DNA of 64,000 nt from Sphingopyxis witflariensis. GTDB taxonomy: Bacteria; Pseudomonadota; Alphaproteobacteria; Sphingomonadales; Sphingomonadaceae. Below the pieces are notes generated by a model that was not told the DNA's origin, searched no databases, and worked only from the letters and a program-made list of their open reading frames with translations. The stretch is from the NCBI RefSeq assembly GCF_002205635.1, contig NZ_NISJ01000001.1, positions 248,001 through 312,000 of the forward strand, in the 5' to 3' direction. Both the position numbers and the translations under genes were made by a program. Below, one piece after another: positions 4,005 to 58,061 of this stretch (the stretch's first letter is position 1; every line of letters begins with the position of its first letter).

Positions 4005-4340
4005 TCAGAAAGGCAATTTAAAGCCCGGGGGCAGCGGCAGGCCGCTGGTCATCTTGCCCATTTCTTCGTTGCTGACCTGGTCTGCCTTTTCACGCGCATC
4101 ATTGAACGCAGCGGCGAGCAGGTCTTCGAGCATCTGCTTGTCGGCGGGGACCATCAGACTGTCGTCGATCGCGATCGCCTTGATCCGACCCTTGGCGCTG
4201 GCGCGAATCCGCACCAGACCGCCACCCGAAACGCCTTCAACCTCGATGCTGTCGAGCTTTGCCTGCGCCTCCTGCATCTGGGCCTGAACGGTCGCGGCGG
4301 CTTCCTGAGCCGCCTTCATCATGTCTTCGATCGATTTCAT
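4005..4340 (-). CDS. ybaB: YbaB/EbfC-family nucleoid-associated protein
   Basis: A 111-residue protein with the YbaB pattern: N-terminal Gln/Ala-rich helix (MMKAAQEAAATVQAQMQEAQ), then beta strands with VEGVSGGGLVRIRASAKGRI, and a C-terminal PGFKLPF tail. The family forms dimers that bind DNA and is nearly always encoded beside dnaX and recR. Here its ATG overlaps the dnaX stop by four bases (ATGA), so translation is probably coupled. recR is not found next to it in this window, which breaks the usual dnaX-ybaB-recR order. Confidence 0.95.
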   Translation of the reverse strand: MKSIEDMMKAAQEAAATVQAQMQEAQAKLDSIEVEGVSGGGLVRIRASAKGRIKAIAIDDSLMVPADKQMLEDLLAAAFNDAREKADQVSNEEMGKMTSGLPLPPGFKLPF

Positions 4341-6070
4341 GGCGCGGACTTATGACGTGTGTCGTCGCCTTCGACAAGCGTTGCGTCGGGAAAAGCTGCC
4401 AAAGCGGCCTTCACCACGGGCAATTCGCGGATGCGCTGATCATTGTCCGCGCCCTTGGCGTCCTGAACATCCTTCAGACTCGGGCGCGCCTTGCCATCGC
4501 CCGCGCGGACGTGCCAGCGGCTGCCCGTTGCGGTAAGCAACGCGTCGCCAAGGTCGCGGGCGAAACTTCCGTCGAGCGCCGGCACCGGCGCGAAGACAAG
4601 ACTTCCCGGTTCCAGCTCGACGATTCGCATATGATCATAAACATCGACCGCAAGCCGATGATTTCCCGTACTTTCGAGTAGCTGATGAATTTGCGCGACA
4701 GTGAGCGCCGAGGCAGGTGGCTCGGCGCGGGCAGGCGCAGCCACTTCAGCTTCGACGGGTGGCGGCGCTGCGGTGATAGTGGAGACTGTATCGCCCTGCC
4801 CGCCGGTCGGCGCGGGCATCGCGGCCATCGCCATCGGCACCCCGCCCGACTGGAGCAGCTTCGCCAACTCGCCCGGGTCGGGCATCGATGCGGCATAGAT
4901 GACGCGCAGCAACAGCATTTCCAGATGCTCGAGCGGATTGTTCGCGCGCAGCACCTCGTCATGCCCCTTGAGCAACAGCTGCCAAAGGCGATTGAGCGGT
5001 GCGAAGCCCAGCTTTTTCGCCCATTCGCCGATGCGTTCGCGATCCGCCTCGGCCAGTGCGGGATCGTCGTGGCGCGACACTTTGGCGAGCGTCACGGCAT
5101 GCGTGAGGTCCATCAGTCCGCGGACCATCGCGACGGGTTCGATTCCCAGCGCATATTGCGCGCGGGCTAGGTCGATCGCGGCGCCGGCGTCGCCTTCCAA
5201 TATCGTCGCCATCAGCTGCGCAATCGACGAACGATCGGACAGGCCGAGCATCGCGCGCACCTGATCGGCGCTGACTTTCCCGCCGCCATCGAGATCGGCG
5301 TGCGCAATCGCCTGGTCGAGGATCGAGAGGCCGTCGCGCACAGATCCCTCGGCGGCATTGGCGATCAGCCAGATTGCGGGCGCCTCGGCCTCGACGCCTT
5401 CCTTTTGCAGGATCGCGCTAAAATGCGCGAACAGCATGTCGGGGGTGATGCGACGAAGGTCGAAACGCTGACAGCGCGACAGCACCGTCACCGGCACCTT
5501 GTTAACCTCGGTGGTCGCGAACAGGAATTTGACGTGCGGCGGCGGCTCTTCGAGCGTTTTCAGAAGCGCATTGAAGGCGTTACGCGACAACATGTGCACT
5601 TCGTCGATGATATAGATTTTGTAGCGCGCCGACACGGCGGCATAACGCACCGCCTCGATAATCTCGCGCACGTCATCGACGCCGGTGTTCGACGCGGCGT
5701 CCATTTCGATGACGTCAATATGGCGTCCTTCGGTGATCGCACGGCACGGTTCGCACACCCCGCACGGATCGATCGTCGGCCCGCCCTGCCCGTCCGGCCC
5801 GATGCAGTTAAGCGCCTTGGCGATCAGGCGCGCGGTCGACGTCTTGCCGACCCCGCGCACCCCGGTCATCAGAAAGGCGTGCGCCAGCCGGTCGCGCGCG
5901 ATCGCATTGCCCAGCGTGCGCACCATCGCGTCCTGTCCGATGAGTTCGGCAAAGGTTTGCGGGCGGTATTTGCGGGCGAGGACGCGGTACGGGCCGCTAG
6001 ACGGCTGCGGCGCGGCATCGGGCAGGTCCATTCCCAGCATCGTGGGTTCGTCGTCGGCGGAATCGCTCAT
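4337..6070 (-). CDS. dnaX: DNA polymerase III subunit gamma/tau
   Basis: A clamp-loader ATPase of 577 residues from the chosen start (MSDSADDEP). Visible parts: the N-terminal signature VLARKYRPQTFAELIGQ (about 30-46), Walker A GVRGVGKTS (70-78), a four-cysteine zinc module including PCGVCEPC, Walker B IYIIDEVHML, and the sensor region FLFATTEVNKVP. The C-terminal third is Ala/Pro-rich and then forms a tau-type domain. An in-frame start 18 codons upstream exists, but its extension looks non-coding. No slippery heptamer for a gamma product was identified. The gene overlaps ybaB by four bases. Confidence 0.97.
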   Translation of the reverse strand: MSDSADDEPTMLGMDLPDAAPQPSSGPYRVLARKYRPQTFAELIGQDAMVRTLGNAIARDRLAHAFLMTGVRGVGKTSTARLIAKALNCIGPDGQGGPTIDPCGVCEPCRAITEGRHIDVIEMDAASNTGVDDVREIIEAVRYAAVSARYKIYIIDEVHMLSRNAFNALLKTLEEPPPHVKFLFATTEVNKVPVTVLSRCQRFDLRRITPDMLFAHFSAILQKEGVEAEAPAIWLIANAAEGSVRDGLSILDQAIAHADLDGGGKVSADQVRAMLGLSDRSSIAQLMATILEGDAGAAIDLARAQYALGIEPVAMVRGLMDLTHAVTLAKVSRHDDPALAEADRERIGEWAKKLGFAPLNRLWQLLLKGHDEVLRANNPLEHLEMLLLRVIYAASMPDPGELAKLLQSGGVPMAMAAMPAPTGGQGDTVSTITAAPPPVEAEVAAPARAEPPASALTVAQIHQLLESTGNHRLAVDVYDHMRIVELEPGSLVFAPVPALDGSFARDLGDALLTATGSRWHVRAGDGKARPSLKDVQDAKGADNDQRIRELPVVKAALAAFPDATLVEGDDTRHKSAP

Positions 6071-6113
6071 GGGCCCCGTCTTAGGGGGTCGACTTGCCTT
6101 TGTCGAAAGCAAG

Positions 6114-6578
6114 ATGCATCCCACTGCGATGTTTCGCGATCAGGAAAAACTCGACGGACTTTATGACCGCGCAGTGCGTATCATGGACGGTCTTGCCCCC
6201 GGCTTTTGCCAACCGATATTCCGCGCTCTCGCGGTTCGAAATCACAGCAACGGACAAGCCTTGCTGGCGTGCAATTTCTTGAAGGACAAGGGCCCCTGCA
6301 CGCATCCCGCCTTTGCCGCCTATTGGTACCGCAAAGCGTGGCGCAACCGCAGCGCATTGGCGGCTCAGCATATGGCGATGAACTGTTTCGCGTCCAACGA
6401 CCTGCAGGGCTACCGTCGCTGGCTGCGCCGCGCGGCGCGTCTGGGCTATGACGATGAGGCCTTCGAGTTGGGAAAATTCGCGACGCGACTCCCGCATCGA
6501 CGGCTCCGATCAATCGGGCGCCTCCGCCCCGCGTATAAACGCGACCGCAAACTGGGCCGCGATAGCGAAATGTGGTGA
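6114..6578 (+). CDS. Sel1-repeat-like protein of unknown function
   Basis: A 154-residue cytoplasmic protein from the ATG at 6114 (a second ATG at 6129 is possible). The middle has an alternating helical pattern with small residues, ACNFLKDKG, then AAYWYRKAW and YRRWLRRAARLGYDDEAFELG. This is the Sel1/TPR-like signature (AxxWYRKAAxxG). The C-terminus is strongly basic. It has no signal peptide. It starts 43 bases from the divergent dnaX start and ends next to the SRP RNA. Sel1 proteins are scaffolds for protein contacts; the partner here is unknown. Confidence 0.6.
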   Translation: MHPTAMFRDQEKLDGLYDRAVRIMDGLAPGFCQPIFRALAVRNHSNGQALLACNFLKDKGPCTHPAFAAYWYRKAWRNRSALAAQHMAMNCFASNDLQGYRRWLRRAARLGYDDEAFELGKFATRLPHRRLRSIGRLRPAYKRDRKLGRDSEMW

Positions 6579-6674
6579 GGGTGGGAGCCGGAACGACCCG
6601 CAGCGAATTCGTTGCGGCTGCTTCCTTCCGGACCTGACCGGGTTGGCGAAGACTGCGTCCGCCCGACTCCCGGG
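6578..6674 (-). ncRNA. ffs: Bacterial small SRP RNA (4.5S RNA)
   Basis: The minus strand contains the near-invariant SRP Alu-less hairpin core GGTCAGGTCCGGAAGGAAGC at about 6620-6640, with the GGAA tetraloop and flanking asymmetric internal loop. The outer arms pair (GGGAG near 6671 with CTCCC near 6582). The RNA binds Ffh and targets ribosomes making membrane proteins. The ends are approximate, set from outer-stem pairing; the size of about 97 bases fits alphaproteobacterial SRP RNAs. Confidence 0.9.
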
Positions 6675-6717: not shown

Positions 6718-7605
6718 TCAGGGCAAATCCCTGGCCACCGCGCGCGCGACATCGGCAATCGCAGCGTTGGCGGCGTCGCCCTTAACCGCCGGCCGATCGA
6801 GATAGACGGCAATCATATATTTGGCGCCGCCAGGCTCCTCGACGAACGCGACGTCATTATAGGCGGTGCCGCACGTCCCGGTCTTGTCGCCGGACAGCCA
6901 GCCAGTGGGCAGCCCGCCGCGAATGCGCGCGAGGCCCGTCTCGCTTTCGATCAGCCAGTCGCGCAATTGTTTGCGATAGTCGCCCGTCAACCGATTGCCA
7001 TACACATAGGCGGCGGCGCTTTTGGCCATCGCCGCGGGACTGCTCGTGTCGCGCGGGTCGCCGGGGGCGTTTTCGTTGAGCTCGGGTTCGATCCGGTCGA
7101 GCCGCGTCACATCATCACCCGCCCCGCGGAGCGCTGCGGTAAAAACGGCCGGGCCGCCCATTTGCGTCAGGATCAGGTTCGCCGCAGCATTGTCGCTGAG
7201 TACCACCGCATCGCGTGCGGCGGCGCCCAGCCGTTGCTCGCCCTTGCCGTCGGCGCCGAGCAATTTTTCCGTCCCCGGCGAATGGGCAATCAGGTCGGCG
7301 CGGGTGAAGGACAACGGAGTGCGCAGCGAGACGCCATCGGCGGCGCGTTCGAGCACCTGTCCGGCGAGCAGCAGTTTGAAGGTCGAGCACATGGCAAAAC
7401 GTTCGTCGGCGCGGTGGCCGAAGAGCAGATCGCCTTGGCTATCGGTCACTGCCACGCCCAGCCGGCCGCCGCTGCGCTTTTCAATCTCCGCAATCTGTTT
7501 GAAAAGGATGACGCTATCGCCCGTTGGTTCACGCGGGCCGACTTCGGGCGATGTCGCGCAGGCTGCAACAGCCAACAGCGCAGCGACAGCAAACATCTTC
7601 TTCAT
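6718..7605 (-). CDS. Class A beta-lactamase, lipoprotein, with carbapenemase-type cysteine pair
   Basis: A 295-residue serine beta-lactamase that would hydrolyse beta-lactams in the envelope. All class A motifs are present: STFK at 74-77, SDN at 137-139, EPELN at 173-177 with the general base Glu173, and KTGT at 241-244. The signal sequence ends in a lipobox (VAAC, Cys16), so the enzyme is probably membrane-anchored. Cys73 and Cys245 flank the active serine and the KTGT motif exactly as Cys69 and Cys238 do in KPC/NMC-A/SME/GES enzymes, where they form a disulfide. The ATG shares one base with the stop of the ferredoxin gene (TGATG), so it is translated as the third gene of an iron-sulfur operon, an unusual place for a beta-lactamase. 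Whether it hydrolyses carbapenems cannot be told from sequence. Confidence 0.93.
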   Translation of the reverse strand: MKKMFAVAALLAVAACATSPEVGPREPTGDSVILFKQIAEIEKRSGGRLGVAVTDSQGDLLFGHRADERFAMCSTFKLLLAGQVLERAADGVSLRTPLSFTRADLIAHSPGTEKLLGADGKGEQRLGAAARDAVVLSDNAAANLILTQMGGPAVFTAALRGAGDDVTRLDRIEPELNENAPGDPRDTSSPAAMAKSAAAYVYGNRLTGDYRKQLRDWLIESETGLARIRGGLPTGWLSGDKTGTCGTAYNDVAFVEEPGGAKYMIAVYLDRPAVKGDAANAAIADVARAVARDLP

Positions 7606-7940
7606 CAGCGCGGCCCCTGCATGTTTCGGCTCTCCGAAGGGATATGCACGGTCAGTGCGCCCATTTCCGCGGTCAGCGATATCTGGCACGACAGGCGGCT
7701 TGTCCGGCGCACCCCGGCGGCAAGATCGAGCATATCCTCCTCCATCTCACTCGCGGGCGGCAGGCGATCGAAATCCTCTTTGGCGACGATGACATGGCAG
7801 GTCGAGCAGGCCATCTGGCCCTCACACGTCCCTTCGAGCGGCATCAGATGCGCCTGCGCGACATCGAGCAGGATGCTGCCCGGCTCGGCCTCGACTTCGG
7901 TGCGGCCCTTGCCGTCGGCGTGTACGAAGGTGACGCGCAT
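7605..7940 (-). CDS. fdx: 2Fe-2S ferredoxin (adrenodoxin/Isc type)
   Basis: A 111-residue electron carrier with the vertebrate-type ligand pattern C-x5-C-x2-C-xn-C: Cys39, Cys45, Cys48 (in CEGQMACSTCH) and Cys85. The start MRVTFVHADG was chosen because it overlaps the stop of the cysteine desulfurase by one base (TGATG) and gives the family length. It would deliver electrons for iron-sulfur assembly or to an oxygenase. The upstream neighbour supports the first role. The downstream beta-lactamase is coupled in the same way. Confidence 0.95.
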   Translation of the reverse strand: MRVTFVHADGKGRTEVEAEPGSILLDVAQAHLMPLEGTCEGQMACSTCHVIVAKEDFDRLPPASEMEEDMLDLAAGVRRTSRLSCQISLTAEMGALTVHIPSESRNMQGPR

Positions 7941-9025
7941 CAATTCACTCCCTGCAAACGTGCGGCCTGCCTGATCGCGTTCAACCCGTCGCGCAATGCT
8001 GTTTCGGACGTATAGCGCCCCCAGCCGAGACGGATCGAGGCGCGCGCATCGGTTTCGCTGACACCCATCGCGCGCAGCACATGGCTGACCTTGCCCGACC
8101 CGCTGCCGCACGCGCTGCCGAGCGAAAAGGCGACATCGCGCGCGTCGGACATCAGGCGCAGCCCGTTTACGCCCTCGCGCCGAACATTGAGATTGCCGTG
8201 ATAGCGTGAGTTCGCGGCGCCGTTGAGCGTCCATTCCGGGAGCATGTCCAAGGCGAGCGACCACAGCCGCTCGACATGTTCGGCGTCTTTCTCGAAGCGC
8301 TCGGCCGCCAGCGCCGCCGCGGCGCCGAAGCCGGCGCAGAGCGCGGGCGAGACGGTGCCCGAGCGCATCCCCTGCTCCTGTGCGCCGCCGAGCATGAAGG
8401 GCGGCAGGTCGACGCCATCCTTCACCCATAATGCGCCAATGCCCTTAGGCCCATGGATCTTGTGGGCCGAGATCGCGATCAGATCGGCGCTGCCGGGGAT
8501 CGCGACGCGGCCATAGCCCTGCACCGCGTCGCAGAGCAGCAGGCTGCTCTTCGCATGCGCGGCGGCAGCGAAATCGGCGACAGGTTGGATCGTACCGACC
8601 TCATTGTTCACCAGCATCACCGCGACAATGCCTTTTTCAGGGATCAGCGCGTCGTCAGGCGATAACGCCACCCCCTCCGCATCGACCGGCAGGATATTGG
8701 CATTCAGCTTTTCGAGGCATTGGAGCGACGCTGCATGTTCAATGCTGAGCCCCGCGACGCCGCCCGGCATCGCCTCGGCGCCGCGCAGCAGCGCCCAGTT
8801 GAGCGCCTCTGTCGCCCCCGACGTGAAGAAAACACGCCCTCCCTTGGGAAGCAGCGCCGCGACCTGATCGCGCGCGACCTCCACCGCCGCCGCCGCGGCG
8901 CGGCCCGCCTTGTGGGTGCTCGACGGGTTGGCGAAACTATCGCCCTCATTACCCATCCAGCGCAGCATCGTCTCACGCGCTTCGGGAGCGAGCGGCGTGG
9001 TGGCCTGATAGTCGAAGTAAATCAT
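7940..9025 (-). CDS. Cysteine desulfurase (NifS/IscS family)
   Basis: A 361-residue PLP-dependent class V aminotransferase that moves sulfur from cysteine to a catalytic cysteine for iron-sulfur cluster assembly. Visible are the N-terminal YFDYQATTPL, the PLP-binding lysine in ISAHKIHGPKG, and the catalytic-cysteine loop GSACGSGSGKVSHVLRAMG near 307. The loop is of the longer, IscS-like type. The gene starts the operon with fdx and the beta-lactamase. A perfect palindrome of the iron-regulator type lies 19 bases before its start codon. In alphaproteobacteria such genes often sit next to an alpha/beta hydrolase and suf genes; the hydrolase is here, the suf genes are not in view. Confidence 0.94.
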   Translation of the reverse strand: MIYFDYQATTPLAPEARETMLRWMGNEGDSFANPSSTHKAGRAAAAAVEVARDQVAALLPKGGRVFFTSGATEALNWALLRGAEAMPGGVAGLSIEHAASLQCLEKLNANILPVDAEGVALSPDDALIPEKGIVAVMLVNNEVGTIQPVADFAAAAHAKSSLLLCDAVQGYGRVAIPGSADLIAISAHKIHGPKGIGALWVKDGVDLPPFMLGGAQEQGMRSGTVSPALCAGFGAAAALAAERFEKDAEHVERLWSLALDMLPEWTLNGAANSRYHGNLNVRREGVNGLRLMSDARDVAFSLGSACGSGSGKVSHVLRAMGVSETDARASIRLGWGRYTSETALRDGLNAIRQAARLQGVN

Positions 9026-9043
9026 GGAGAGAGACGGTCCTTA

Positions 9044-9060
9044 TTGCGAGCGATTCGCAA
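9044..9060. promoter_or_regulatory. Fur-like / iron-responsive palindrome between cysteine desulfurase and hydrolase genes
   Basis: The sequence TTGCGAgcgatTCGCAA is a perfect 6-bp inverted repeat with a 5-base spacer. It resembles alphaproteobacterial Fur-type boxes (TTGCGAATnATTCGCAA-like). It is 19 bases upstream of the cysteine desulfurase start and about 105 bases upstream of the hydrolase, so it could control either direction. The identity of the regulator is inferred only from the motif. Confidence 0.55.
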
Positions 9061-9164
9061 AAGTTGCAACTTGCTACGCAATTTCTATATAGGCCGCGCC
9101 TTCGCTCCGCCACCCTGCCAAGCCCGGCGATTCGGCGGTCAGCCAAAATATAAGAGGTGCTCCC

Positions 9165-9821
9165 ATGCCCGACGTCATTTTCACCGGCCCCGAAGGCCGC
9201 CTCGAAGGCCGCTTCTCGCCGCCGCCGCGCCCGCGTGCACCGCTGGCGATGATCCTTCACCCGCATCCACAGGGCGGCGGCACGATGAACGATCGCATCA
9301 CCCAGGCGATGTACAAAAGTTTCGTCGCGCGCGGCTTTGCCGTGCTGCGCTTCAACTTTCGCGGCGTCGGCCGCAGCCAGGGCACGTTCGACAATGGCAT
9401 TGGCGAACTCTCCGATGCCGCGTCGGCGCTCGATTGGGTCCAGTCGATCCATCCCGAAGCACAGACGACGTGGATCGCGGGCTTCAGCTTTGGCGCGTGG
9501 ATCGGTATGCAGCTTTTGATGCGCCGTCCCGAAATCCGCGGCTTCCTGTCGGTTGCACCGCCGGCGAACATGTATGACTTCAGCTTCCTGGCCCCCTGCC
9601 CTTCGTCGGGCATCATCGTCGCGGGCGCGCAGGACGAAATCGTCCCGCCGAGCGCGGTGCAAAAGCTGGTCGACAAGCTTCGCACGCAAAAGGGCATCAC
9701 CATCCATCACGACGAGATCCCGCGCGCGAACCATTTCTTCGAACATGAACTGCCGCAGTTGATGAAGTCGCTCGACAATTACCTGGATATGCGGCTCGCG
9801 CCGGATTCGCCGATCCGCTGA
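9165..9821 (+). CDS. Alpha/beta hydrolase
   Basis: A 218-residue cytoplasmic hydrolase with a complete triad: nucleophile Ser108 in GFSFG, Asp157 in GAQDEIV and His190 in ANHFF. It also has the HPHPQGGG oxyanion-side segment and FNFRGVGRSQG typical of the short YdfG/COG2945 group. Members are found beside suf/isc genes in many alphaproteobacteria, and here the gene is divergent from the cysteine desulfurase. The substrate is unknown; small esters or lipids are possible. An AGGTG-type ribosome site precedes the ATG. Confidence 0.9.
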   Translation: MPDVIFTGPEGRLEGRFSPPPRPRAPLAMILHPHPQGGGTMNDRITQAMYKSFVARGFAVLRFNFRGVGRSQGTFDNGIGELSDAASALDWVQSIHPEAQTTWIAGFSFGAWIGMQLLMRRPEIRGFLSVAPPANMYDFSFLAPCPSSGIIVAGAQDEIVPPSAVQKLVDKLRTQKGITIHHDEIPRANHFFEHELPQLMKSLDNYLDMRLAPDSPIR

Positions 9822-57390: not shown

Positions 57391-57837
57391 ATGCTCTCGC
57401 AGAAGACCCGCTATACGATCCGTGCTTTCCAGCATCTTGCCGATCATTGGGGCAAGGGGCAGGTCCAACTCGCGGACATTGCGGAGGCGCAGAATATCCC
57501 GCCCAAATTTCTGACCGTGATATTGTCGGAAATGGCGCGCGAAGGATTGCTCATTTCGCAGCGCGGGCGCGACGGCGGCTATCAATTGGCGCTGCCGCCC
57601 ATCGACATCAGCTATGGCGACCTTGTCCGGCTGACGCGCGGCTCGCTGGCGCTGGTGCCGTGCGCTGCGCGCAACGCGCACGAGCATTGCAAAAACTGCC
57701 TGCCCGAAGCCGAATGCCGGATGCGCAGTCTGATGCTGAAGGTCCGCGACGACACCGCGTCGATCCTCGATCGCATCTCGCTGGCCGACCCGATCACGAT
57801 GGAGCCGGTGTTCGAGACCGAAGAAGCGGCGCAGTAA
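57391..57837 (+). CDS. Rrf2-family iron-sulfur regulator
   Basis: A 148-residue transcription factor. N-terminal winged helix (QKTRYTIRAFQHLADH, then LADIAEAQNIPPKFLTVILSEMAREGLL and RGRDGGYQLA). Three cysteines in PCAARNAHEHCKNCLPEAECRM (four in all) could hold a [2Fe-2S] or [4Fe-4S] cluster, as in IscR and NsrR. It could sense iron-sulfur status or nitric oxide. It is divergent from the secreted-protein pair and is followed by a hairpin terminator. Confidence 0.88.
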   Translation: MLSQKTRYTIRAFQHLADHWGKGQVQLADIAEAQNIPPKFLTVILSEMAREGLLISQRGRDGGYQLALPPIDISYGDLVRLTRGSLALVPCAARNAHEHCKNCLPEAECRMRSLMLKVRDDTASILDRISLADPITMEPVFETEEAAQ

Positions 57838-57984: not shown

Positions 57985-58061
57985 GTGGTGGAGCCTAGCG
58001 GGATCGAACCGCTGACCTCCTGCATGCCATGCAGGCGCTCTCCCAGCTGAGCTAAGGCCCC
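57985..58061 (-). tRNA. tRNA-Ala (anticodon GGC)
   Basis: On the minus strand: acceptor GGGGCCT with AGGCTCC (one G-U pair), D arm GCTC/GAGC, anticodon loop ATGGCAT (GGC, Ala), T arm AGCGG/CCGCT with loop TTCGATC, discriminator A and encoded CCA. The 3' side of the anticodon arm reads GCAAGG, one A more than needed to pair with CCTGC, so there is a bulged A or a C-A mismatch with a six-base variable loop. Length is 77 instead of 76. Confidence 0.93.

Follow-up and report, generated by a model that had tools for sequence, protein, structure and literature searches.

What does a class A beta-lactamase do at the end of an iron-sulfur operon? The gene, bla, lies in a window of 64,000 nucleotides (the whole stretch of DNA that was analysed) from Sphingopyxis witflariensis, and directly follows genes for a ferredoxin and a cysteine desulfurase. 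An earlier note on this DNA took the product to be a KPC/NMC-A type enzyme under iron-sulfur control, in a setting that it called unusual. As a whole account we consider it probable that bla encodes a functional, chromosomal, lipid-anchored class A beta-lactamase that is translated from the tail of the operon, is linked to iron, and acts on penicillins and cephalosporins. The enzyme belongs to a known class and its locus is conserved; what is new is a Fur-like palindrome in the Sphingopyxis promoter. The titles and abstract openings on SGM-1, blaSGM and Sphingopyxis class A enzymes, a sample that covers few subscription journals, do not describe the desulfurase–fdx–bla operon; the one paper found to mention its components together deals with how Caulobacter responds to iron.

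The bla gene and its neighbours

The features of the locus are these:

4337–6124, minus strand: dnaX, DNA polymerase III gamma/tau subunit, flanking the locus (Pfam, open frame)
6577–6674, minus strand: ffs, small signal recognition particle RNA, the next gene downstream of bla (Rfam RF00169, 61.4 bits)
6718–7605, minus strand: bla, class A beta-lactamase of 295 aa with a putative lipoprotein-type leader (translation, HMMs, alignment, model)
7605–7940, minus strand: fdx, 2Fe-2S ferredoxin, sharing one base with bla (Pfam Fer2)
7940–9025, minus strand: cysteine desulfurase of NifS/IscS type (Pfam Aminotran_5, over cut-off)
9026–9164: intergenic stretch that separates the desulfurase operon from the divergent hydrolase gene and is conserved at Sphingopyxis loci
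9044–9060, minus strand: Fur-like palindrome TTGCGAATCGCTCGCAA, 18 bases ahead of the desulfurase start codon (ATG)
9165–9821, plus strand: alpha/beta hydrolase-type protein, encoded divergently and present at many related loci as well

The frame at 6718–7605 translates into 295 residues with no internal stop. When it is aligned to KPC-2, GES-24 and CTX-M-15 the catalytic motifs are complete, as the earlier note had it: S74xxK77 corresponds to Ambler 70–73, S137DN139 to 130–132, E173 and N177 to 166 and 170, and K241TG243 to 234–236. The NCBIfam model bla_class_A scores 258.2 bits against a cut-off of 200, and PF13354 scores 114.1 bits against 22. With SxxK, SDN, Glu166 and KTG all present and the curated cut-off exceeded, the protein is, on the evidence of its sequence, a class A beta-lactamase. 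Values of dN/dS lie between 0.043 and 0.223 for bla (nine pairs tried) and between 0 and 0.115 for fdx; together with an HMM score of 258 bits over a cut-off of 200, the values for bla show that the gene is not a chance frame. This purifying selection suggests that the enzyme is functional. Catalysis would then proceed by acylation of Ser70, followed by a deacylation driven by Glu166.

The predicted structure has a mean pLDDT of 93.1. Among the best 50 PDB folds listed for it, the top ones are BEL-1, GES and reconstructed ancestral enzymes (TM 0.83–0.87 by query), and reconstructed ancestors also lead the sequence matches to solved structures. GES and BEL are 38–42% identical to the window enzyme. 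GES-24 has the same cysteine pair (discussed below), but its gene adjoins intI1 on a plasmid in the record fetched, whereas bla of the window is chromosomal.

The leader carries a predicted lipobox, V13-A14-A15-C16, which Cys16 closes; by eye, a cysteine stands at the matching place in all 20 fetched Sphingopyxis orthologs. The lipoprotein-type leader that had been proposed is thus borne out, and a conserved lipobox within the first 30 residues indicates that the product is probably a bacterial lipoprotein. The enzyme would probably be lipid-anchored in the periplasm, where it may protect the cell against the natural beta-lactams of its habitat.

The desulfurase–fdx and fdx–bla junctions both read TGATG, a one-base overlap with all three genes in a single direction, which confirms the coupling reported for them; a candidate ribosome site for bla, AGGGG, was seen by eye inside the end of fdx. 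Translation of bla probably takes place at the distal end of a desulfurase–fdx–bla mRNA. The best NCBIfam model for fdx is fdx_isc, with 81.6 bits (below its cut-off of 132.1), and all 15 NCBIfam models listed for the desulfurase stay below their cut-offs. On the other side of bla, the true start of dnaX is probably further inside the open frame at 4337–6124, and the distance from bla to dnaX differs from genome to genome. Between dnaX and ffs, on the opposite strand, the frame 6114–6578 (plus strand, beginning MHPTAMFRDQ) could be a genuine small gene; a likeness of its product to Sel1 repeats is a guess made by eye.

Distribution of the locus

An ortholog of bla (at least 61% identity) is present in 21 of 80 Sphingopyxis genomes, the genome of the window included, and in all 21 it is free of stop codons. 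Because only these 21 carry it, bla must be dispensable. Six further genomes of the 80 have another class A enzyme, of 42–43% identity. The nearest named relatives include that of Sphingopyxis sp. Root154, with 75% identity. In the window and in the 20 fetched orthologs fdx and the desulfurase adjoin bla, with about 800 bases between bla and fdx at one locus (L101). On a weakly supported tree of desulfurase plus fdx (40 Sphingopyxis rows), presence and absence of bla take 10 changes, of which the starred branches force one.

Beyond the genus, the blaSGM model finds a match at E 1e-40 in 121 of 298 sampled genomes of the family. Positions of bla and fdx were compared by hand (six of the 121 have no fdx at E 1e-25), and bla stands immediately after fdx in 26 of the 121, spread over 10 genus codes; three of the 26, all of one genus code, pass the SGM cut-off. 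The setting is less singular than the earlier note believed: it recurs in 10 genus codes and is the site of three genes over the SGM cut-off, so that "unusual" is only partly right. For an environmental gene of resistance type this provides a chromosomal setting: SGM members in the sample stand behind iron-sulfur genes, and so do their relatives among the sphingomonads. A recent origin from a plasmid was rejected: no plasmid record reaches 60% identity among the 5000 matches listed, where the best are Azospirillum replicons at about 50%, and the chromosomal locus is conserved.

At five other-genus loci whose upstream stretch was inspected (L014, L016, L017, L020 and L023) a second desulfurase-like frame was seen by eye upstream of the fdx-linked desulfurase; Sphingopyxis has one desulfurase and the palindrome.

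The palindrome and iron

The palindrome is followed directly by AAGGA, by eye a possible ribosome site of the desulfurase. In a promoter alignment of 18 distinct Sphingopyxis sequences under 200 bases (from 39), 8 with bla and 10 without, the block TTGCAACTTTTGCGAATCGNTCGCAANAAGGA of the 9026–9164 region is near-invariant. With up to two mismatches allowed, 36 of the 37 Sphingopyxis loci, a set from two collections in which some species stand twice, have the palindrome TTGCGAATNNNTCGCAA ahead of the desulfurase gene; 35 of the 37 are free of mismatches, and the reversed pattern, taken as a control, occurs upstream of the desulfurase at none of them.

In the genome of the window the same tolerance yields 29 forward and 27 reverse matches, many of them one place read on both strands; the reversed pattern yields four forward and three reverse. 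There are 22 box loci, one of them the operon of the window, and 14 downstream frames were scanned. Six are of iron type: four TonB receptors, one ferritin (its box being some 300 bases away) and one PepSY protein. Six come from families not evidently linked to iron (two MFS/POT transporters, a glucokinase, a protein of malate dehydrogenase type, an FtsX/MacB-type permease and one of alginate-export type), and two match no family. TonB receptors are common in the sphingomonad group, so six iron-type neighbours in 14 are suggestive only. In front of the Rrf2 gene that precedes sufB, at a distance of 17 bases, there is a match with two mismatches (G000:C35:52886-52902); this Rrf2 gene heads the suf operon (iscR-suf), further genes of which were named by eye. 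The genome has two Fur-family genes. It also has four matches to Rrf2-family regulators, one of which is in the window (57394–57789, plus strand), close to a tRNA gene (57989–58061, minus strand).

We call the palindrome Fur-like on account of its neighbouring genes and of its palindromic shape, which we take to be that of a Fur operator. It is best read as a Fur-type site; IscR is a possible reader as well, since the suf operon of Caulobacter answers to iron without Fur, perhaps via IscR, according to passages of PMC3751524. The site is conserved and lies in the promoter that the operon genes would share, and its Fur-like form makes iron-linked control plausible, with support from sequence. 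Because the promoter that bla would share carries a Fur-like operator, the level of the enzyme should rise when iron is short.

Against a role for iron stands the view that bla is a mere passenger at the tail of a housekeeping operon, in a neutral site before ffs and dnaX where iron is of no use to it. We regard this as a live possibility, although we lean away from it. The 21 fetched fdx loci of Sphingopyxis that have no bla keep both desulfurase and fdx, at 16 of them the 1.5 kb fetched also contains ffs, and the palindrome is as well conserved at such loci as at those with bla. The 30 best loci of the family, the window included, comprise 23 with bla beside fdx, five with bla beside ffs only and two with neither. 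In other genera the palindrome (up to two mismatches) was found at three of 32 loci, 560–778 bases upstream, with a searchable upstream stretch of just 317–409 bases at 24 of the 32; being rare there, the box cannot explain by iron control why the genes are linked in those genera. On the other side, the one-base bla–fdx overlap is kept in 20 of the 21 Sphingopyxis loci with an ortholog, own genome counted. Given that degree of retention, bla of Sphingopyxis should share the operon message, whether this is useful or not.

If control by iron is nonetheless accepted, a further step can be imagined, which we put forward tentatively and think rather doubtful: that the beta-lactamase is part of the Sphingopyxis response to iron starvation. 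A Fur-family repressor would act on the desulfurase–ferredoxin–beta-lactamase operon, and iron-short cells would make more periplasmic beta-lactamase alongside the TonB-type receptors that have the same box, perhaps against the beta-lactams or siderophore-linked antibiotics of competitors. Were the iron link true, tolerance of beta-lactams would depend on iron supply, and susceptibility tests under iron-rich conditions would miss this. There is a precedent for a class A enzyme tied to iron-sulfur regulation in CzoA of Comamonas testosteroni, where, as passages of PMC5744064 relate, IscR raises expression of czoR, the gene of its activator. That tie runs through a LysR regulator gene, whereas bla of the window shares an operon with the iron-sulfur genes themselves.

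The cysteine pair and the substrates of the enzyme

The protein has three cysteines, at positions 16, 73 and 245. In the three-reference alignment C73 and C245 fall at Ambler 69 and 238, just where the earlier note had placed them, and a disulfide between them is predicted from alignment and fold. Both are present in the window protein and in all 20 fetched Sphingopyxis orthologs. Cys69 is near-general, occurring in 137 of 142 aligned homologs (the rest have Gln in three cases and Ala in two); thus only Cys238 is distinctive. Among 80 loci of relatives it occurs in 10, every one from a sphingomonad.

The origin of Cys238 was followed on a tree of 86 rows, which took in 25 of 65 non-sphingomonad loci and was built without 13 duplicate rows and without L001 and L114–L116; reference sequences of NMC-A, SME, SFC, BEL, BKC, PAD and SGM-1 lie outside it. 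Of the 50 locus-linked rows, 38 have Cys at position 238 and the other 12 have Ala, Gly or Ser. KPC and GES have Cys there as well; the 33 remaining non-reference rows all lack it. The label changes three times on the tree, and starred branches force two of the changes. KPC joins CTX-M (support 100/99), and GES sits on a long branch whose place is unsure. An AU test rejects the grouping of all Cys238 rows into a single clade (p-AU 0.0028). For the 38 sphingomonad rows with Cys238 such a grouping is compatible with the data (p 0.394), and all 50 locus-linked enzymes may likewise form one clade (p 0.37). Close kinship with KPC was rejected on the joining of KPC with CTX-M and on the AU result, and the Cys238 of sphingomonads apparently arose independently of the one in KPC. 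Of the label "KPC/NMC-A type", therefore, the cysteine pair stands and the kinship with KPC falls.

Could bla nevertheless be a true carbapenemase like KPC or NMC-A? The Cys69–Cys238 disulfide, with Asn132, Asn170, Thr237 and with His105, Thr216 and Arg220 (numbers that we take to be correct as read off the KPC-2 alignment), would on this view shape an oxyanion hole for carbapenem deacylation. KPC-2 indeed has the pair, Asn170, Thr237 and Arg220 in common with the window enzyme, but is 40% identical to it and has Trp where the latter has His at Ambler 105. The active-site residues that a review lists for carbapenemases, in the passages that treat them (PMC4463611), are Cys69, Ser70, Lys73, Ser130, Asn132, Glu166, Asn170, Thr237 and Cys238, and every one is present. 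The same passages state that class A carbapenemases except SHV-38 have just two cysteines, 69 and 238, joined in a disulfide; the window enzyme matches this rule, its only other cysteine being that of the lipobox. QM/MM work (PMC9379904) assigns a role to the disulfide, and by simulations and mutants its contribution in SFC-1 and SME-1 is real (PMC9379904, PMC4463611). Set against this, GES-1 has the disulfide and is not a carbapenemase (passages of PMC12643063), while PAD-1 and BKC-1, with Asn238 and hence without the pair, are carbapenemases (passages of PMC5566211). Since the disulfide of GES-1 brings no carbapenemase activity and PAD-1 shows that activity without one, the pair is neither sufficient nor required for carbapenem hydrolysis, and the implication that it marks a carbapenemase fails in both directions; we would warn against reading Cys69/Cys238 as proof of one. 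The classA_carba model (NF000538) stops at 195.7 of the 390 bits that its cut-off demands, KPC is placed elsewhere in the tree, and the pair is common to three SGM members, of which family SGM-1 is titled an extended-spectrum enzyme. On these grounds we think a true carbapenemase unlikely; carbapenem hydrolysis is possible and is not confidently predicted.

The nearest named family is, by sequence comparison, SGM. The blaSGM model (NF000512) is the top NCBIfam model, with 268.5 bits against a cut-off of 500, and the L2 model gives 239.7 bits against 540; the NCBIfam scores thus mark a class A enzyme that falls into none of the named families among the 25 best-ranked of 100. The same chromosomal place, fdx–bla–ffs–dnaX, and the same cysteine pair are found in the three sampled genomes that exceed the SGM cut-off (L117, L118 and L119), and bla of the window is 50–53% identical to these members over about 236 residues. 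L016, of the SGM clade, differs from the window, where there is one desulfurase, in the second desulfurase-like frame seen by eye. SGM-1 of Sphingobium (Lamoureaux 2013) appears under the title of an extended-spectrum beta-lactamase in the reference lists of PMC8300632 and PMC3871716, and after that title the substrates of our class A enzyme are most likely penicillins plus cephalosporins.

That the protein is instead a D-Ala-D-Ala peptidase or another penicillin-binding relative devoid of lactamase activity, the contrary outcome that the earlier note had weighed, is highly improbable: the fold superfamily is shared and PF00144 matches (63.7 bits, cut-off 27), but Glu166 and Asn170 of class A are present, PF13354 and bla_class_A both exceed their cut-offs, and structure comparison puts BEL-1, GES and reconstructed class A enzymes first, so that motifs, HMMs and fold all disfavour it.

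The locus also offers a natural series at position 238 (Cys, Ala, Gly and Ser), a test bed for the role of that residue. Elsewhere in the genome, the best match to PF13354 is another, remote protein (G000:C34:228520-229299), 25% identical to bla of the window.
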